From Candidatus Gastranaerophilales bacterium (GTDB lineage: Bacteria > Cyanobacteriota > Vampirovibrionia > Gastranaerophilales > Gastranaerophilaceae): DNA of 33,209 bases. Numbering within the stretch: position 1 is the first letter of the stretch; each line of letters begins with the position of its first letter. The stretch covers positions 1 to 33,209 of the forward strand of contig CALUSW010000016.1 of assembly GCA_944323535.1 (NCBI GenBank), given 5' to 3'. Below are positions 25,079 through 33,209 of the stretch, in pieces. The notes under the pieces are model-generated. The model did no database searches. It was not told where the DNA came from and was given only the letters and a program-made list of their open reading frames with translations. A program made the translations under genes and the position numbers.

Positions 25079-25675
25079 TTATTGTTCTTCTTGCTTTATA
25101 CTTTCAGAAACCGCATTATTCACTTCTTGAGATTTACTGTCATATAACTGTGTATATTCTTTTATTTTTTCATTTAATTCTGTAATTTTATTGTTTATTT
25201 GATCTGTTTCTGCTGCCTTAATATCCTTTACCAGATAAGTGTTATAAGTCTCAACCGCATCAGCGGCTTTATTATTAAATTCTGAAATTTCTTCAAGTGT
25301 AAGCTCTGGAATATTACCGTTTTCATCAGGTTCTTTTTCTATTATCTGATATGCAATTGCTTCTTTCGCAATTGCCAGAGTATAATAGGCATCATAAAAA
25401 TCGGGTTTTAATCTCAGAACATTATTCAGCTCTTCAATTGCTTCATTGTATTTACCGATTTCATTATATGCAACAGCCAGATTGTAATGAGTCTGATATA
25501 TATCATTGTCTAAATCAAGGCTGGATTTTAAGCGGCAAATGGCCGTTTCCGTATCACCTTTATCCATATAATCAGCTGCTTTATTGTTTAATTCCTGTAT
25601 CGCTAAATTATTTATACAAGCGGTAGTTATTACAGACATAAAAAGTATTGTAAATAACAACAATATTTTTTTCAT
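25079..25675 (-). CDS. Small exported TPR protein, possible lipoprotein
   Basis: 198 residues. The N-terminus MKKILLLFTILFMSVITTAC is a signal sequence with Cys20 at a lipobox-like position, but residue -3 is Thr instead of Leu/Val/Ile, so lipidation is uncertain. Two to three TPR units follow (ELNNKAADYMDKGDTETAIC, QTHYNLAVAYNEIGKYNEAI, AYYTLAIAKEAIAY), then a charged coiled-coil-like tail ending QEEQ. It is the first gene of the operon and lies directly before lgt, the enzyme that would modify it. AGGGGA precedes the ATG. Probably an envelope scaffold; no specific function is proposed. Confidence 0.82.
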   Translation of the reverse strand: MKKILLLFTILFMSVITTACINNLAIQELNNKAADYMDKGDTETAICRLKSSLDLDNDIYQTHYNLAVAYNEIGKYNEAIEELNNVLRLKPDFYDAYYTLAIAKEAIAYQIIEKEPDENGNIPELTLEEISEFNNKAADAVETYNTYLVKDIKAAETDQINNKITELNEKIKEYTQLYDSKSQEVNNAVSESIKQEEQ

Positions 25676-25699
25676 AATATTCCCCTATAACTCTTTAAC

Positions 25700-25728
25700 A
25701 ATATAAATGCAAAATGAAAATTTTGCAA
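25700..25728 (-). promoter_or_regulatory. Promoter of the TPR-lgt-mlaD-upp-pgeF operon
   Basis: On the minus strand TTGCAA (25728-25723), a 17-base spacer and TATATT (25705-25700) give a start near 25693 and a leader of about 18 bases with AGGGGA. TTGCAA is palindromic and also serves the divergent promoter. Confidence 0.6.
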
Positions 25729-25750
25729 TATTTTTAAATTAGTATACAAT
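25723..25750 (+). promoter_or_regulatory. Promoter of the zinc finger-ruvX operon
   Basis: TTGCAA (25723-25728), a 16-base spacer and TACAAT (25745-25750). The expected start point near 25757 falls inside the GGAGGAG at 25755-25761, so the upstream purine block would lie at the very 5' end of the message. Confidence 0.5.
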
Positions 25751-25782
25751 AATTGGAGGAGTAAATTTGTTAAGAGATAGTC

Positions 25783-26055
25783 ATGAGCGATTCGGAAAAA
25801 ATAGTTTCTTTGAAACAGGCAAGAAAAAAAACAAAAGAAGTTAAAAACGATGAAACTTCTAAACAGTCAGAGCTTGTATATTGCAGTTTTTGCGGCAGAC
25901 CTAATACTCAGGTTGCCAAAATGGTTCAGGGCCCCGGGGTTAATATATGCTCAGAGTGTACTATGATAGCTGTCCAATATTTAATATTAGAAGATAAACT
26001 GCCCTCCGGCGAAGCTCAGAAAATACTTGATATATTCTGGAGTAAAATAAAATAA
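25783..26055 (+). CDS. Stand-alone ClpX-type C4 zinc finger protein
   Basis: 90 residues: a basic N-terminal stretch (Lys-rich to about residue 28), then the zinc-binding domain normally found at the N-terminus of ClpX. Ligands are Cys34 and Cys37 (YCSFCGRP) and Cys56 and Cys59 (ICSECT), with the connecting VAKMVQGPGVNIC typical of ClpX. A short helical tail follows and there is no AAA+ domain. In ClpX this domain dimerises and binds substrates or adaptors, so a free copy could act as an adaptor or as a DNA/RNA-binding finger; this is inference. The ATG has only AAGAGA at usable distance; the stronger GGAGGAG is 21 bases away and points to a TTG in another frame. Its stop overlaps the next ATG (TAATG). 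Confidence 0.85.
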   Translation: MSDSEKIVSLKQARKKTKEVKNDETSKQSELVYCSFCGRPNTQVAKMVQGPGVNICSECTMIAVQYLILEDKLPSGEAQKILDIFWSKIK

Positions 26056-27692
26056 TGACACAGCTTTCAAAGCTTCAAATCAGAGCGAAAGTTCTTTCTG
26101 TTATTTCCGAAATAAAAACTTTAAGAAATTTTAATGAAGATGCGATTGCTAAATATAAATCGGAACTTGAACAAATTTCTGATAAAAAAGCTTTGTTTGA
26201 TATTTTTTTGAAAGAATTTGTTAAAATGCAGGAAGCTGAATATATTTTTTCCGCCTGCCTTTTAAAAGAAATTGTGCCCGAAGAATATATAAATAGTAAA
26301 GTTCTTGAAGAATTAAAATCTTCTTCATTATCTGATGAATATAAATATAAACTGGTTCAGCTCTTAAGAATAACGGGCGGAACCGATAATTTTAGCGAAA
26401 TACCTTCCTATTTTGATAATCCTGAAGAAATTCTGGATTTAGAAACAAAAAAGTTATTGGAAAAAGCTGTTGTAAATCCTGAAGCAATGCTTGATTTTCT
26501 TGATTTTGTTTCAGCTGTTTCTCAAAATGACAGGAATTTATTGCTAAATTCACTAAGCCAGGATTATACAGGCGATGAACTGGCAAATATTATATATCCG
26601 ATTTTATATTCAGGGTTTGAAGATTCTTTTATACTGGACTGCGTAAAAATTTTAATAAATTCCAGGTCTTCGCTTGCTATTGCTCCTTTTGAGTATTTAA
26701 TAAAAACAAGTAACAATGAAGATATAGTTAATAATTGCAGGCTAGGTCTTAAACAATTAAAATTGGCAGGAGCTTCAAAAGAAAATGCTGATAAATATTT
26801 TAACAATATAATTAAAGACTCTTCTCCGGCAGAATTTTTTACTACAATACCTGATGGAGCGGGAAATCAGGCTTTGTTGATTTCAAGAGTTACTTCTAAA
26901 GGGAAATATCATCTTTCTGCTGTTGTTATTAATGATGTTTCGGGAATAATTGACTGCTTCGGTTTCTATAATATTTCTCCGGATGAATTGTACAGAGTAA
27001 TAGATAAATTCTATCAAACAGAGGGAAAATATAAAGTTCCTGCAGAATATTCAAAAACAAAAATTCAGACTGCTGTTGATATAACAATAAAACAAAAAAG
27101 AAAATTCCCTTATGAATTTATATGCTGGAATGTTTTGCTTAATGATGTAAATTTAATGGCAGATTCTTTAGAAAATATAATTTCTAAAAAGTCTTCTGCA
27201 GTGAATATTTCAAAAGATGAAATCCTTACGTTGCTTACAAAAGACTTTACTTTAAGGTGGTTTATATCTCCTTCGGAGAATGATGTAATTAAAAAAATGG
27301 TTGATGTCTTTTATAATATGTCTGATATTGACATTTCTTTTATAAATCAGGAAATAAAAAATAAATTTAATACAATATTTGATGATAATTCCAGTAATAT
27401 CTGGCAGTCAAGATTGTATAATTTAATATATTTGCTGCAGGAAAATTCATACTCAAATGAAGCTGATTGTTTTTATACTATTGTAAAAAATAATGAATAC
27501 TTTAATTTATTTAAATATGTTCTTATACAAAGAAGTATTTTTAATCATTTTATTTCTTTAAGAGAATTATGCAAAGAATCTTTGCTTGCAACAAATATAT
27601 TCAGAAAAAAGAATTTGAATGAGCAAAAACATGATATTAAAAAAATTGATAATTTGATAAAATTAATGAAAAAAAGCTGGATAGATGGATAA
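26055..27692 (+). CDS. Large helical (HEAT-like) protein, unknown function
   Basis: Not recognised. 545 residues without signal peptide, membrane span or cysteine motif. Residues 1 to about 260 are repeating helix pairs resembling HEAT/Armadillo units, with unit-like phrases such as LLKEIVPEEYINSKVLEELK and DCVKILINSRSSLAIAPFEYL. A middle part (about 268-320) looks like an alpha/beta insert (ALLISRVTSKGKYHLSAVVI, then DCFGFYNIS). The rest is again helical. It is locked between the zinc finger gene (one shared base, GGAG ten bases before the ATG) and ruvX (8-base overlap ATGGATAA), so all three are made together. The HEAT-like assignment is a visual judgement of helix periodicity. It may be a lineage-specific partner of RuvX or of the zinc finger protein. 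Confidence 0.8.
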   Translation: MTQLSKLQIRAKVLSVISEIKTLRNFNEDAIAKYKSELEQISDKKALFDIFLKEFVKMQEAEYIFSACLLKEIVPEEYINSKVLEELKSSSLSDEYKYKLVQLLRITGGTDNFSEIPSYFDNPEEILDLETKKLLEKAVVNPEAMLDFLDFVSAVSQNDRNLLLNSLSQDYTGDELANIIYPILYSGFEDSFILDCVKILINSRSSLAIAPFEYLIKTSNNEDIVNNCRLGLKQLKLAGASKENADKYFNNIIKDSSPAEFFTTIPDGAGNQALLISRVTSKGKYHLSAVVINDVSGIIDCFGFYNISPDELYRVIDKFYQTEGKYKVPAEYSKTKIQTAVDITIKQKRKFPYEFICWNVLLNDVNLMADSLENIISKKSSAVNISKDEILTLLTKDFTLRWFISPSENDVIKKMVDVFYNMSDIDISFINQEIKNKFNTIFDDNSSNIWQSRLYNLIYLLQENSYSNEADCFYTIVKNNEYFNLFKYVLIQRSIFNHFISLRELCKESLLATNIFRKKNLNEQKHDIKKIDNLIKLMKKSWIDG

Positions 27693-28089
27693 AATATTAG
27701 GACTTGATATTGGAAAAAAACGTATAGGTATAGCATTAAGTGACGCTCTGGGGCTGATTGCTCATCCTGTTGAAACTATAGACAGACAACCGGAAAATTC
27801 AGCAATTGAAAAAATTAAAAAAATTTGCAATGATAACAATGTAAAAAAAATAGTTGCCGGACTTCCTAAAAACATGAATAATACTATAGGAGAACAGGCA
27901 CAAGATTGCATAGAATTTGCAAATAATTTTAAAAGTGAATATGAAGTAATTTTTGAAGATGAAAGATTAACAAGCAGACAGGCGGAATATATACTGGCAA
28001 ATACCGGTCATAAATATACAAAAAATAAACAGCTTGTTGATTTAAAAAGTGCGTGTATAATACTTCAGCAGTATCTTGATAGAAAGTGA
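27685..28089 (+). CDS. ruvX: Putative pre-16S rRNA nuclease / Holliday junction resolvase-like RuvX
   Basis: 134-residue RNase H-fold protein of the YqgF/RuvX family, known to take part in 16S rRNA 5'-end maturation and also tested as a junction resolvase. The first motif is LGLDIGKKRIGIALSD with catalytic Asp8. IVAGLPKNMNNTIGEQA, the FEDERLTSRQAE motif and a C-terminal Asp in LVDLKSACIILQQYL complete the active site. Length is typical. The ATG overlaps the end of the helical protein. DUF1292 follows after six bases, an order also common near ruvX in Firmicutes. Confidence 0.94.
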   Translation: MDKILGLDIGKKRIGIALSDALGLIAHPVETIDRQPENSAIEKIKKICNDNNVKKIVAGLPKNMNNTIGEQAQDCIEFANNFKSEYEVIFEDERLTSRQAEYILANTGHKYTKNKQLVDLKSACIILQQYLDRK

Positions 28090-28095
28090 GAAAAT

Positions 28096-28368
28096 ATGAC
28101 TGAAAAAACTGATAACTTAATTGAAACATTTGATGAAGAAGGAAATAAAGTTTCTTTTGAACTTCTGGATATTGTATCTGTTGATGATATAGAATATGCA
28201 CTTCTTCTGCCTGTTGATTATGAAGAAGATTCGGAAGAAAATGAAGTTCTTGTAATGCGTCTTAAAAAAGAAGGCGAAGACTTTTCTTTTGAAGCAATTG
28301 AAGATGATGATGAATTTAATAAAATTGCCCAATATATAGAAGAACTTGAAGACGAATTGGACGAATAG
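28096..28368 (+). CDS. DUF1292 family acidic protein
   Basis: 90 residues, strongly acidic (Glu and Asp throughout, C-terminus EELEDELDE). It matches DUF1292/YrzB-like proteins: an N-terminal beta-rich part with FDEEGNKVSFELLDIVSVDD, then YALLLPVDYEED and the Glu-rich end. The function of the family is unknown, but it commonly follows ruvX. AAAGTGAG overlapping the ruvX stop serves as ribosome binding site. Last gene of the operon. Confidence 0.9.
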   Translation: MTEKTDNLIETFDEEGNKVSFELLDIVSVDDIEYALLLPVDYEEDSEENEVLVMRLKKEGEDFSFEAIEDDDEFNKIAQYIEELEDELDE

Positions 28369-28386
28369 TTTTATAGATGATGATAT

Positions 28387-28911
28387 TTAATCATTTTTAC
28401 AAGTAAACTGCTGTTGGCGGATGTCTTTTGTTATTATTTTCCAGTTTGAAATTAGTTTTTCCGTATTATATTTGGCATTTGCAGGACTTGTTGAAAGCAT
28501 TTTGTTGCAGCTGTAATGATTGAATAAATCAGGAAAATATTTTTTAAAAACCGTAAATGCAGTTGATCCGTTTAAATATATGGTTTTAATATTAGGATAT
28601 TTTTTTAATAAATCAGAAATGTCATTTGGATAAATATTTAATATGTCAGAATCCAGACTTCCTTCTCTGGTGCAGTATTTAATTGTGTCCCAAACTGCAA
28701 TTTTATTGTTTAACAGAGTTTTTATTTTTTCTTTATATTCACAATTATATAAATCTTTGTTATTGCAAATAGCACCGATAACTTTCCAAAACCTGTTTTG
28801 AGGGTGTGCATAATATTGCTGCATTTCTAAAGATTTAACACCCGGCATAGAACCGAGAATTAAGACCCTGGAATTTTTATCTATTATAGCCTTTAGACTT
28901 TTACATTTCAT
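28387..28911 (-). CDS. DNA-deoxyinosine/uracil glycosylase family protein
   Basis: 174-residue member of the uracil-DNA glycosylase superfamily, closest to the hypoxanthine (deoxyinosine) DNA glycosylase group. Motif 1 is LILGSMPGVKSLEMQQYYAHPQNRFW (given in halves: GSMPGVKSLE, then YYAHPQNRFW), with Asn in the catalytic loop. It is followed by VWDTIKYCTREGSLDSDI, a beta-strand IKTIYLNGSTA and the motif 2 loop LSTSPANAKY. It would remove deaminated bases in base-excision repair, complementing Nth elsewhere in the window. No Shine-Dalgarno sequence is clear before the ATG. It converges on the DUF1292 gene with 18 bases between stops. Confidence 0.88.
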   Translation of the reverse strand: MKCKSLKAIIDKNSRVLILGSMPGVKSLEMQQYYAHPQNRFWKVIGAICNNKDLYNCEYKEKIKTLLNNKIAVWDTIKYCTREGSLDSDILNIYPNDISDLLKKYPNIKTIYLNGSTAFTVFKKYFPDLFNHYSCNKMLSTSPANAKYNTEKLISNWKIITKDIRQQQFTCKND

Positions 28912-28956: not shown

Positions 28957-28973
28957 ATGTTATTCTGAATTTA
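28957..28973 (+). repeat. Repeat module ATGTyATTCTGAATTTA, copy 1
   Basis: Matches 29446-29462 at 16 of 17 positions. This is the left half of an ATTCTGAA...TTTCAGAAT palindrome family that recurs through the intergenic region. Confidence 0.75.
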
Positions 28974-29040
28974 GTTCATAATCTTGCCGGTTGCAGATGT
29001 AAACCGCAAGTCAGTAAGATGCAGAAACACCGGACAGGGG

Positions 29041-29060
29041 ATAAAATCACGTTTCGACAT
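29041..29060 (+). repeat. 20-bp repeat module, left copy
   Basis: ATAAAATCACGTTTCGACAT is present exactly, in reverse complement, at 33109-33128. Similarity extends on both sides: upstream ATCTTGCCG (28981-28989) and downstream yGTCT...CGGwTTTTGCA also recur. Confidence 0.9.
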
Positions 29061-29114
29061 CGTCTCAACGGATTTTGCAGCCAGTTCAGCATGACTGATT
29101 GGTTTATTAATGTC

Positions 29115-29135
29115 ATCCCGAACTCGTTTCGGGAT
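29115..29135 (+). repeat. Palindromic repeat unit (ATCCCGAA hairpin)
   Basis: An 8-bp stem ATCCCGAA/TTCGGGAT with a 5-base loop, preceded by TGTC and followed by CTTACCAATTGG. The same layout, with T/A changes in the stem, occurs in split form at 29446-29462 and 29514-29540, so these are members of one palindromic family. Confidence 0.75.
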
Positions 29136-29445
29136 CTTACCAATTGGAAATGCAGGCTTCAAACTGGTCAGACCCTGAAACCGTCTTGAATTTTCCTTAC
29201 GGCTCAGGCAATCCGCTTCTTGGATTTGCTTTGCGCTCACAGAACTTCGCCTGCGGGGCTTTGCCCCTGTCGGTTTTTTCTGTTCGCTTACCGGACTCGT
29301 TTCACTCCGTCCGTCCGCAAATCCGCTACATTCCGTAAAAACTTTTTAGCTTTTACTTCATTTCACCTGCCTCTCGCCTTTTCGGCATTTCGCTTCGCTT
29401 CAGCTTACGGAAAATCCGCAGTTCAGGGTGACAACGAATGAAAAA

Positions 29446-29540
29446 ATGTCATTCTGAATTTACAGCTCTTCTTGTTGCCGACAATAGGAGGCTACAAGGG
29501 AGGGTACTCGAAGAGTATTTCAGAATCTTATCAATTGGGA
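29446..29540 (+). repeat. Palindromic repeat unit, copy 2, interrupted
   Basis: TGTCATTCTGAATTTA (left half) and TTTCAGAATCTTATCAATTGG (right half; first 20 shown elsewhere as TTTCAGAATCTTATCAATTG) correspond to the unit at 29111-29146. The halves are separated by about 50 bases ending in a small TACTC-GAA-GAGTA hairpin at 29505-29517. Bases 29504-29529 recur inverted at 33184-33209 with 24 of 26 identical. Confidence 0.75.
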
Positions 29541-29550
29541 ATAAAAACTT

Positions 29551-29628
29551 CAAACGAACAAGATTGCAGGTTGGGTGGAATGCAGTGAAACCCAACAATA
29601 ATAATTCGTTTGGATTAAAACCCAACCT
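29551..29628 (+). repeat. GTTGGG/CCCAAC-type palindromic repeat
   Basis: CAAACGAA (29551-29558) pairs with TTCGTTTG (29605-29612) and encloses AGGTTGGG (29568-29575) with CCCAAC (29591-29596). A third arm, CCCAACCT (29621-29628), competes for the same partner. To my recollection, AGGTTGGGT...AAACCCAAC repeats are widespread intergenic palindromes in Cyanobacteria and some other bacteria. Confidence 0.65.
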
Positions 29629-29809
29629 ACAACTTCAACTTCCCTCACTTATTTAAATTATTATTAATTTTACTATTTTTATATTTGTTGTCTATTTGTG
29701 TTTTAAGAGCTGTTTATCCGGGTAAAATAGCTTAATTTGAAAATAAAAGGAATTTTATCAGGTAAAAAAATAAAACAGTATATGCCTTATTAACAGATAT
29801 AAAAGAAAA

Positions 29810-29833
29810 ACAGAAAATTATACAATTTTCTGT
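29810..29833 (-). terminator. Orphan terminator-like hairpin on the minus strand
   Basis: A perfect 10-bp stem ACAGAAAATT/AATTTTCTGT with a 4-base loop. Only the minus strand has a following T-rich tract (TTTTTCTTTTAT after the 3' arm's final T), so it would stop transcripts running leftward, although no minus-strand gene ends nearby. Confidence 0.45.
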
Positions 29834-29913
29834 CTGAATGTGTTTTAATACGATCTATCTTGTTGAATAAGATAATATAAAATTCCTTATTTGTATATTA
29901 GCCATTCTTCCTA

Positions 29914-29943
29914 TTGAAAAAATTTATTTTTGTGATATATAAT
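29914..29943 (+). promoter_or_regulatory. Promoter of the helicase-nuclease gene
   Basis: TTGAAA (29914-29919), an 18-base spacer and TATAAT (29938-29943); a TG two bases upstream of the overlapping TATATA adds extended -10 character. A second TATAAT at 29974-29979 lies only seven bases before the ATG and, if used, would give a nearly leaderless message. Confidence 0.55.
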
Positions 29944-29986
29944 CTCTCTATTTCTTATTTACCGGATTTAATATATAATTAATGTT

Positions 29987-32900
29987 ATGGAAATGAAATT
30001 GAATATTCCCGAAAATAATATTAAATCTGGTATAAAGCCGAATGTAAAGCAGGAAGAATGTATCAGAACGTTAGATGGGCCCGTGATGGTATTGGCGGGA
30101 CCCGGAACGGGCAAAACATATACAATTATCGAACGTATAGCTTATATGATACATGAAGGAATTGTTCCAGGGGCAATACTGTGTTTAACATATTCTGAAG
30201 CTGCGGCTAATGAAATGAAAGCAAGGCTGGTAAAAGAAATAGGAACAACTGCTTCTGCCGTAACCGTAAATACTTATCATGCTTTTTGTAATGATATTAT
30301 AAAACAATATCCGTATGAATTTGAAATGCTTGACGGAGTAGGCTTGGTTGATGATGTTACAAAACGTTCCATTATGCAAGAAACCCTTGATATTGTACAG
30401 CCTGAATATTATCGTACAAGGTGGGGTGATTGTTATTATTTTATACCTGAACTTCTAAAAGCTGTTGATGAACTTAAATCTAATCAAATCACGAAAGAAG
30501 AATATTTTAATACATTAAACTCTCATCCTGATTGGATGGGAAAAATGCAGGCGCTTGAGATTGAATATGCCGAACGTGAACAAAAAGGAAAACTTGTAAA
30601 AACATTTTTAAATTCTTTTGAAACACATAAAAGAAAAATAGGAAAGGCAAAAGAAGTTTGGCAAGTATTTGAGCAATATGATATTAAATTAAAACAAAAT
30701 AATTTTATTGATTTTAATGATATGATTAATATGGTTTTGGAGGCTTTTGACAATAATGAGTCTTTCCTTAAAAAAGTTGCTTCAAAATTCAAATATTTTC
30801 TTGTTGATGAATATCAGGATACGAATTATTCTCAAAATAAGATTGTTTTTCAACTTGCAAAAGGGGCGGACAGCAGAAATATTTTTGTAGTCGGTGATGA
30901 TGATCAGATAATATATGAATTTCAAGGAGCTAAAACCGATACTCTTGAAAAATTTCTTAATTTGTTCCCTGATACTAAAGTAATATGCCTAAATGAGAAT
31001 AACCGTTCTACTCAAAATATTTTGGATTTCAGTTATAGTATAATATCACAGGATAAAACCAGACTTGAATATAATCCTGAATTTAAAAAATTTAATATTT
31101 CAAAAAAATTAACGGCAAAAAATCCTAAAATAGTTCCTCTTAATAAAAAAATTCAAGTACATGGGTTTGCGGATTTAAAACAGGAAAACAATTTTATTAT
31201 AGACTCTATAGAAAATCTGATAAAATCAGATGTTTTTCCATTAAATAACGAGGGAGAAAAAGATTTATCGAAAATAGCTGTTTTAACGCGTGAAAATAAC
31301 GAACTTGAGGAATTTGCAAATCTTCTTGAAGCACGCAATATAAACTTCCAAATTAAAGAATCTAAAAACATTTTCGATATTAAAGCTTCTTTGCTGATAT
31401 ATTTTTATTTAAAAGCACTTGAAAACAGCTATTATTACAGTGATAAATTATTCGGACTGCTGCTTTGTGCTCCTTTTAATTTTGATAATAAAGATATGAC
31501 TTTTTTAATTCAGCAAAATAAAATAAATCATAATGATTTAATAACGAATATAAGAAATAATTTAGACTCGTATAAATGGCAGGCTCCGGATAAAGTAAAG
31601 AAATTTATTCATGATTTTGACAAATTATTAAAATTAAAAAACGTATTAAATGTCAGGGATTTAATTATAGAAACGGTTAATATTACCGGACTTTTAGCGT
31701 ATTTTCTAGAAAATGACATTGATAAAAGCGAGAATATATATGCCGTAAAAAAAATTACCGATGAAGCTCAATCATATATGTATCTGCATAAAGGATGTAA
31801 AATCTCAGACTTTCTCGACCATTTGGATAGTGCCTTTAAAAGTAATATTCCTATTGTTATTGATAAAGACGATTATATCCAAAATGCGGTGCAGCTTATT
31901 ACCTTACATGGTTCTAAAGGCAGAGAATTTGATTATATATTTATGCCGCATTTAATATCAAAAAAATGGGAGGATAAAAGAGTAAATAATTCTATGTCGC
32001 TGCCTGTTGACAAAGATTGCGCAGAGACGGATGAAGAAACTGCAAGAAAATCAGAGCAGTTGCGATTACTTTTTGTCGGAACTACAAGGGCAAAACATTC
32101 TTTAATAATGTCATATTCCAATTCCATAGACGGACAGCCCAGAGAACTTACTTCATATCTGTCGGCACCTGTACAGGATGAAAATCTTGTTGAAACTTAT
32201 AACCATGAATTGGAAAAAGATGATTACATTAATGAAATTGTATCCTCTTTAACAAAACAATCTTTTGATTATACTGCGGCATTTGAAGGCGAAATAAAGG
32301 CAAGAACAAAAGATTTTATAATAAGTCCCAGTACGCTCAATTCATATATAGCCTGTCCCAGAGCATTTTTATATTCCAAAGTTCTTGAAATACCGGTGCT
32401 TGATAAAGATACAGAAAATGCTCACTACGGTACGGCTGTTCATTCAGTTTTAAAATGGGCTGTACAATATGCCCAAACTAATGAAAGGTATCCGGATTTA
32501 GATTTAATGAAAGAAATTTTTATTAAAAATCTTTCAATGCAGGAATTTGATACTCTGCAAAAAAGAGAAGAATTTGAAAAAAGAGGTTTAAAATGTCTGG
32601 ATAAATATTATCCGCAGATGCTTTCAACTCCTTTTAACCGTATTTCTTCCACCGAATATTCATTTAATTATGTTCCCGTTGAAAACCATTTTTTGAAGGG
32701 ATTTATTGACCGTATTGAAAAAAATAAAGACGGGACATTGGAAGTTTATGATTATAAAACAGGCGGTGCAAAATCAAAATCTCAGATTGCTGACGGCAAA
32801 ACCTATGAAAATTACTTAAATCAGCTAAGATTTTATAAATATGCGCTTGAAATCCTTGATAATAATACAAAAGTTGTTCGTGCCGGGTTGATTTTTGTGG

Positions 32901-33079
32901 AGGAACCGGACAATAATTTCTATATAGAATTAACTGATAAAGATAATCAAATTATTAAAGACAAAATAGATTATGTTTACACAAATATTGAAAACCTGAA
33001 TTTTGAGCCGCCCAAGCCGGAAGAAAGAAGCTGTGAATATTGTGACTACAGACATCTTTGCAAATTGAATGAACTATAA
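29987..33079 (+). CDS. SF1 (UvrD/PcrA-like) helicase fused to RecB/AddB-type Fe-S nuclease
   Basis: 1030 residues. The helicase comes first: Walker A GPGTGKT (38-44), LTYSEAAANEMKAR, the DEYQDTN Walker B, GDDDQIIYEFQGA, NNRST, TLHGSKGREFD and LLFVGTTRAK. From about residue 770 a PD-(D/E)xK nuclease follows: SPSTLNSYIACPRAFLY, HYGTAVHSVL with the leading His, GFIDRIE and VYDYKTG with the catalytic Asp and Lys. Four cysteines (one in IACP, three in CEYCDYRHLC near the end) match the Fe-S staple of AddB and Cas4 nucleases. One chain thus carries all parts needed for DNA end resection, like one half of AdnAB or AddAB, but no partner gene is adjacent. No Shine-Dalgarno sequence precedes the ATG; an ATG two codons later is the only close alternative. 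Inverted repeat modules lie on both sides. Confidence 0.93.
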   Translation: MEMKLNIPENNIKSGIKPNVKQEECIRTLDGPVMVLAGPGTGKTYTIIERIAYMIHEGIVPGAILCLTYSEAAANEMKARLVKEIGTTASAVTVNTYHAFCNDIIKQYPYEFEMLDGVGLVDDVTKRSIMQETLDIVQPEYYRTRWGDCYYFIPELLKAVDELKSNQITKEEYFNTLNSHPDWMGKMQALEIEYAEREQKGKLVKTFLNSFETHKRKIGKAKEVWQVFEQYDIKLKQNNFIDFNDMINMVLEAFDNNESFLKKVASKFKYFLVDEYQDTNYSQNKIVFQLAKGADSRNIFVVGDDDQIIYEFQGAKTDTLEKFLNLFPDTKVICLNENNRSTQNILDFSYSIISQDKTRLEYNPEFKKFNISKKLTAKNPKIVPLNKKIQVHGFADLKQENNFIIDSIENLIKSDVFPLNNEGEKDLSKIAVLTRENNELEEFANLLEARNINFQIKESKNIFDIKASLLIYFYLKALENSYYYSDKLFGLLLCAPFNFDNKDMTFLIQQNKINHNDLITNIRNNLDSYKWQAPDKVKKFIHDFDKLLKLKNVLNVRDLIIETVNITGLLAYFLENDIDKSENIYAVKKITDEAQSYMYLHKGCKISDFLDHLDSAFKSNIPIVIDKDDYIQNAVQLITLHGSKGREFDYIFMPHLISKKWEDKRVNNSMSLPVDKDCAETDEETARKSEQLRLLFVGTTRAKHSLIMSYSNSIDGQPRELTSYLSAPVQDENLVETYNHELEKDDYINEIVSSLTKQSFDYTAAFEGEIKARTKDFIISPSTLNSYIACPRAFLYSKVLEIPVLDKDTENAHYGTAVHSVLKWAVQYAQTNERYPDLDLMKEIFIKNLSMQEFDTLQKREEFEKRGLKCLDKYYPQMLSTPFNRISSTEYSFNYVPVENHFLKGFIDRIEKNKDGTLEVYDYKTGGAKSKSQIADGKTYENYLNQLRFYKYALEILDNNTKVVRAGLIFVEEPDNNFYIELTDKDNQIIKDKIDYVYTNIENLNFEPPKPEERSCEYCDYRHLCKLNEL

Positions 33080-33089
33080 ATATAGTGTT

Positions 33090-33209
33090 TGCAAAAACCG
33101 CCAAGACAATGTCGAAACGTGATTTTATGTTCTGCCCTGTTTTTCGGAATTTTACCAAAAAGCAAATATAACTCTAAGTCGGCAAGATGCTGAAATACTC
33201 TTCGAGCAC
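33090..33209 (-). repeat. Inverted copy of the 29-kb repeat modules, continuing past the window
   Basis: Read on the minus strand, 33209-33184 matches 29504-29529 (24/26), followed by CTTGCCG as at 28983-28989. Then 33128-33109 is identical to 29041-29060, ending in a GTCT...CGG-TTTTTGCA segment that matches 29062-29079. Module order differs from the left locus, so this is a rearranged rather than a simple duplicate. It begins about ten bases after the helicase stop; no coding sequence is seen in it. Confidence 0.8.

Follow-up and report, generated by a model that had tools for sequence, protein, structure and literature searches.

Inverted repeats that bracket a helicase-nuclease gene in a Gastranaerophilales genome are members of a dispersed family of paired hairpins

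A contig of 33,209 nucleotides from a "Candidatus Gastranaerophilales bacterium," analyzed here as a whole (the window), ends with a helicase gene that is bracketed by inverted repeats, which raises the question of whether the repeats explain its position. A sequence-only reading proposed that the bracketed gene may have moved as a unit or been inverted by recombination between the repeats. The modules on which it relied were confirmed: a 20-bp module at 29041 to 29060 (+ strand) recurs at 33109 to 33128 (− strand) with 0 mismatches (0.00 expected in 100 dinucleotide shuffles), and a 26-bp module at 29504 to 29529 (+) recurs at 33184 to 33209 (−) with 24 of 26 matches (0.00 expected in shuffled sequence). 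Both flank the helicase gene in opposite orientation, as described, and chance is excluded by the shuffles. The 20-bp module extends into the window's longest inverted repeat, whose 66-nt arms (29014 to 29079 and 33090 to 33155) are 79% complementary. The features of the locus are as follows.

25079 to 28368: end of a conserved block (g23, ClpX zinc finger, a 545-aa gene, RuvX, and DUF1292), collinear in congeners; synteny ends at 28368
28387 to 28911, − strand: DNA-deoxyinosine glycosylase gene (TIGR04274, 167 bits versus a cut-off of 80), located after the conserved block and before the left repeats
28959 to 29095: element 1, with a short-loop hairpin (28959 to 28988), a 54-bp core (28974 to 29027), and a cassette-C hairpin on the − strand to 29095
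29112 to 29432: element 2, with a short-loop hairpin (29112 to 29141, GTCATCCCGAACTCGTTTCGGGATCTTACC), a core (29127 to 29180), and a long cassette-D hairpin on the − strand to 29432
29448 to 29571: element 3, with a cassette-B hairpin (29448 to 29532, + strand) plus spacer; the second hairpin is lost; contains the 26-bp module
29987 to 33079, + strand: UvrD-type helicase with a C-terminal PD-(D/E)XK nuclease, 1,030 aa (Pfam UvrD N, UvrD_C, and PDDEXK_1)
33090 to 33209: right-hand element, with a cassette-C hairpin (5' half decayed), a 54-bp core (33142 to 33195), and a cassette-B hairpin on the − strand, cut by the contig end

Two hairpins arranged head to head form the unit of these repeats, [TGTC-ATNCTGAA-loop-TTCAGN'AT-CTTACC]-24 bp-[inverse]. 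Comparison of copies side by side shows that a single hairpin consists of a TGTC tag, an 8-bp stem (AT-N-C-T/C-GAA), a loop, the second half of the stem, and a 3' tail, CTTACC, which is followed by A or G in most copies. The tag, with T preceding GTC, is present in 47 of 51 hairpins, and the first stem pair is A-T in 28 of 30. The inner 15-mers of both hairpins, together with the 24 bp that separate them, form the core, whose length is 54 bp in 28 of the 29 copies despite wide sequence divergence. Loops are either 5 nt long or occupied by a cassette, i.e., C (∼55 nt), B (∼58 nt), or D (∼240 nt; ∼130 nt when shortened), and many copies carry such cassettes. Start-to-start spacing is nearly constant within each genome: 38 to 39 in the source genome, 79 or 109 in G008, and ∼45 in G024. 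Some elements have, at their outer edge, half-hairpins (the tag and first stem side) in tandem with a spacing of 19 to 20 bp, as if reiterated (L089:47-325 and L036:1054-1780).

At the helicase locus, the left cluster reads short-C', short-D', B-(lost) and the right cluster C-B' (cut), with an intact counterpart of the latter (C-core-B') on contig C35 of the source genome (L041:262-456). Element 1, which contains the 20-bp module, was delimited by the arm scan, the core pattern, a covariance-model match (E of 5e-7), and alignment of the C cassette. Element 2 matched the model with an E of 2e-10 and retains an outer ACCC/GGGT stem around its ∼240-nt loop, and the B hairpin of element 3 has a DNA fold z of −3.5. 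Cassette C contains the 20-bp module, and the 26-bp module comes from cassette B and its stem. The modules therefore differ in order and orientation around the helicase gene because interchangeable loop cassettes occupy different hairpin arms, which accounts for all of the difference in order that had been described as a permutation.

The repeats are not specific to the helicase gene. The source genome (G000; other G labels denote the genomes compared and L labels extracted loci) comprises 121 contigs and 1.90 Mb, and with the 604-bp left cluster as the query, 91 matches were found in it, many at contig ends. A covariance model built on the 30-nt hairpin found at least 75 short-loop copies (E of ≤0.01) in 38 clusters, and a single cluster can hold as many as 7 of them; the counts from this model are lower limits, because scoring was limited to 150 candidates in each genome and mostly missed long-loop forms. 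Most resolved clusters do not overlap a large open reading frame (ORF). Of the 37 clusters on contigs of known length, 23 lie <500 bp from a contig end, versus 6.4% expected, and the family thus accounts for where the assembly breaks; position 33209, within the right repeat, is one such break, being the end of contig C16. The 38 clusters come near to an occurrence of the repeats at most intergenic regions, which the sequence-only reading had named as the finding that would make the bracketing a coincidence. The flanking repeats are members of a genome-wide paired-hairpin family, the bracketing is ordinary, and what appeared to be a helicase transposon is one instance of that family. A composite transposon, which would have inverted ends around a transposase and a target-site duplication, was rejected, as only the helicase-nuclease gene, and no transposase, lies between the clusters and the repeats are genome-wide; an inversion switch was rejected for want of an internal mobility gene and, again, because of the genome-wide repeats.

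Gene order in the genus bears on whether the gene nevertheless moved with its repeats. The block ending with RuvX and DUF1292 is collinear in five to six congeners. In G004, G006, G010, G012, and G013, DUF1292 is followed by a convergent glutamate dehydrogenase (GDH) gene, an amidase gene, and further genes; the adjacency of DUF1292 and GDH is direct in four of these, and one 246-aa gene lies between them in G004. Everything past 28368 in the source genome is new relative to these five. Its own GDH and amidase genes are on contig C77, which has two other genes and further hairpins on its DUF1292-facing side. Contig C16 followed by C77 would preserve the ancestral order, and the simplest reading is therefore that extra DNA was inserted between DUF1292 and GDH in the source lineage, with a predicted C16-C77 junction. 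Repeats may also have settled in this interval, which would leave the helicase gene between two clusters. The deoxyinosine glycosylase gene is patchy (present in three of eight relatives searched) and does not adjoin RuvX-DUF1292 in the congeners examined.

The helicase-nuclease gene is the only one of its type in the source genome, and the genus survey found orthologues (62 to 81%) in several congeners. As a named defense gene it was rejected: PADLOC returned generic UvrD matches only (GajB and others), and no NCBIfam equivalog cut-off was reached. The congener orthologues are located elsewhere, with different neighbors in nearly every congener, and no paired-hairpin repeats were found near them or near the DUF1292-GDH junction; the gene thus changes neighbors without repeats. 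A control gene beside the repeat cluster on C22 behaves similarly: its source-genome neighbor is missing in eight of eight congeners, each of which has a different downstream flank. Neighbor change is therefore common in the genus; no special explanation of the bracketing is called for. Movement or inversion of the helicase gene as a unit between flanking inverted repeats is highly improbable. The inverted modules on both sides and the lineage-specific position of the gene, where congeners have GDH after DUF1292, would fit it, but besides the 38 clusters, the repeat-free congener loci, and the lability at the unrelated C22 site, the deoxyinosine glycosylase gene is also new in the source genome yet lies outside the bracket, and the contig ends within the right repeat. 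The earlier proposal is partly supported in that the gene has a lineage-specific position, but the bracketing is no evidence for this; for inversion by recombination between the repeats, no evidence was found. With gene order also unstable at this second site, there is no indication that the repeats were responsible for moving or inverting the helicase gene.

The hairpins are under pairing constraint. Double changes within stems numbered 25, versus 8.1 ± 2.2 in shuffles (reached in 0 of 500); outer stems around cassettes B and C match in 120 of 128 cells (1 of 5,000 shuffles); and D-cassette arms are also paired (ACCC/GGGT, ATGC/GCAT, and ATCC/GGAT). Mutational copying of one stem side from the other would give the same covariation, and selection is thus not proven by covariation alone. 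No covariation was found between the two hairpins of an element (2 double changes versus 10.5 shuffled), and a single long hairpin built from both arms was rejected on this anticorrelation: stems covary within a hairpin, not across the pair.

Partner stems are drawn from a small set (ACCCTGAA, ATCCCGAA, ATTCCGAA, ATTCTGAA, and a few others), and identical partners are nearly absent. No identical-stem pair occurred among 27 pairs in the source genome (5.0 expected; p ∼0.003) or among 10 in the congener G008 (p ∼0.006). Among the matches listed from at least 118 loci in many phyla, 97 pairs are head to head, 33 tail to tail, and 23 head to tail; 95 of the 97 head-to-head pairs have different stems, and 2 have identical ones (25 ± 3.4 expected), while direct-orientation neighbors in the same loci are identical in 12 of 23 cases. 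The numbers of heterodimers may be too high if perfect long palindromes drop out of short-read assemblies, so that only mismatched pairs stay visible. Many loci are indeed on contigs of metagenome-assembled genomes (MAGs), and clusters are located at contig ends. We nevertheless consider such an artifact unlikely as the explanation, as the rule holds in isolate-genome contigs too (e.g., L129 and L137-type loci) and is also kept by pairs with long spacers. Inverted repeats of ∼60 bp are usually spanned by assemblers, and the one exact homodimer seen, of a ATGCTGAA-type hairpin on an IMG/VR viral contig (L266:1524-1590), was assembled normally.

Among known palindromic repeats, the paired hairpins match the transposase-less CGTC/TGTC superfamily of repetitive extragenic palindromes (REPs), of which they would form an under-studied branch with long loops and clustering as variations. 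CGTC REPs (Di Nocera et al. 2013, PMC3733652) have 8- to 9-bp stems with A-T first pairs and compensatory changes, loops of 4 to 5 nt with few exceptions, a short 3' tail that is mostly CCA directly after the stem, and predominantly head-to-head dimers; they lack a dedicated transposase and occur in several phyla. The repeats described here share with the TGTC variant the altered tag, the 8-bp A-T-first stem, the 5-nt loop of the short form, covarying stems, head-to-head pairing, heterodimers (as in CGTC-2 and CGTC-3), lack of transposase association (here for Y1_Tnp genes), and occurrence in several phyla (PMC3733652). They differ in that loops in the source genome also measure ∼55 to 240 nt and carry interchangeable cassettes, the spacer in that genome is fixed at 24 bp, the 3' tail is longer (CTTACC rather than CCA), identical partners are almost wholly avoided, and hairpins are often clustered, whereas clusters of CGTC REPs tend to be rare, although Neisseria and Wolbachia members cluster (PMC3733652). 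The host, whose genome size, low G+C content, and fellow carriers of the 26-mer described below suggest a gut Melainabacteria (Gastranaerophilales) lineage, is outside the list of CGTC phyla in that survey. The heterodimer tendency is known in part, because heterodimers are reported to predominate in CGTC-2 and CGTC-3 (and homodimers in other CGTC families; PMC3733652); its strength and breadth here appear new, given the assembly caveat. Rickettsial RPE-4 and RPE-6 and neisserial dRS3, named as CGTC members (PMC3733652), are alike by description, including mosaic intergenic clusters in Neisseria, but occur in other hosts.

GTAG REPs, REPINs, and BIMEs, which are associated with RAYT transposases, are likewise palindromes located between genes, where they form inverted pairs and mosaic clusters (PMC3116915, PMC2817692), and the source genome has a RAYT-like gene. 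This intact Y1_Tnp gene (RAYT type, 179 aa; one intact copy in the genome) is on contig C8 and adjoins a C/B element, and Y1_Tnp genes occur in four of eight hairpin-rich genomes, as might be expected if the transposase moved the paired hairpins. That it does so is very unlikely: the gene has inverted GTAG hairpins of its own at both ends (GTAGGGTGCAATTTTTTGCACC), with only four copies in the genome; no RAYT gene is flanked by paired hairpins, which carry a TGTC rather than a GTAG tag; and Y1_Tnp presence does not track hairpin number (p of 0.10 and 0.40), with 34 to 65 hairpins and no Y1_Tnp in G008, G018, G021, and G024 and the reverse in G004 and G013 (p of 0.40). The paired hairpins lack RAYT association, in agreement with published CGTC repeats (PMC3733652). 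Further copies of the GTAG hairpin end contigs C54 and C77, and the RAYT-like transposase is thus probably multicopy and collapsed in the assembly (L259:7503-7545, L042:876-946, and L035:1119-1750). Retention of the hairpins as terminators or 3'-end stabilizers, spread by ordinary duplication and gene conversion, would be consistent with covariation within hairpins and with the location of most resolved clusters outside large ORFs. It is a doubtful explanation, however, since a terminator needs neither the pair form nor a fixed spacer nor avoidance of identical partners, the stems lack a following T-run, an Rfam search with the repeats gave no match, and the hairpins are missing from most congeners.

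Very probably, the flanking repeats represent a non-coding, non-autonomous paired-hairpin element that is dispersed through the genome and belongs with the CGTC/TGTC REP superfamily. Its copy number, dispersal, architecture, covariation within hairpins, near absence of identical partners, and lack of RAYT association were observed directly; no empty and filled site pair was found for the element, and its movement was therefore not observed. We postulate that the hairpin pair is the spreading unit, that it may spread as single-stranded hairpins exposed during replication or transcription, and that the mobilizing activity may be supplied in trans. Inverted neighbors with identical stems would form one long palindrome and might be purged by SbcCD-type palindrome-directed cleavage or deletion, leaving heterodimers. 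The rule that inverted pairs have no identical stems is sharp and testable, can separate a requirement of mobilization from purging of palindromes, and bears on the spread of CGTC REPs, for which no enzyme is known. The long-loop cassettes extend the transposase-less REP superfamily.

Short-loop hairpins number at least 75 in the source genome, 35 in G008, and 19 to 91 in six genomes that belong to other families within the order, versus 0 to 5 in the other congeners among the first 16 genomes; the model favors the source genome because it was built from source-genome copies. Exact matches to the 26-mer GTCATGCTGAACTTGTTTCAGCATCT were found in at least 118 stretches of the species-wide collection, mostly of Bacteroidota, Treponema, and Gastranaerophilales, and also in single MAG contigs labeled Nanoarchaeota, Daviesbacteria, Nitrospirae, Caldiserica, and others, where binning errors are possible. 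A literature search by repeat sequence returned unrelated primer papers only. It is conceivable, although we advance it tentatively and would not call it probable, that one near-identical paired-hairpin element inhabits many bacterial phyla, with stems complementary to themselves but not to each other and the loop as a cargo slot of up to ∼240 nt; such an element would be mobile, non-autonomous, and widespread, with no known mobilizer. Cassette C was not found in viral contigs. Outside the source genome, to which the long cassettes are largely confined, G030 and G043 have partial D-like matches, and weak matches occur singly elsewhere. Degenerate, GC-rich relatives of cassette D (GGACGGACGGAGTGAAACGAGTCC) also occur outside clear hairpins (L044:400-812 and L036:430-600).
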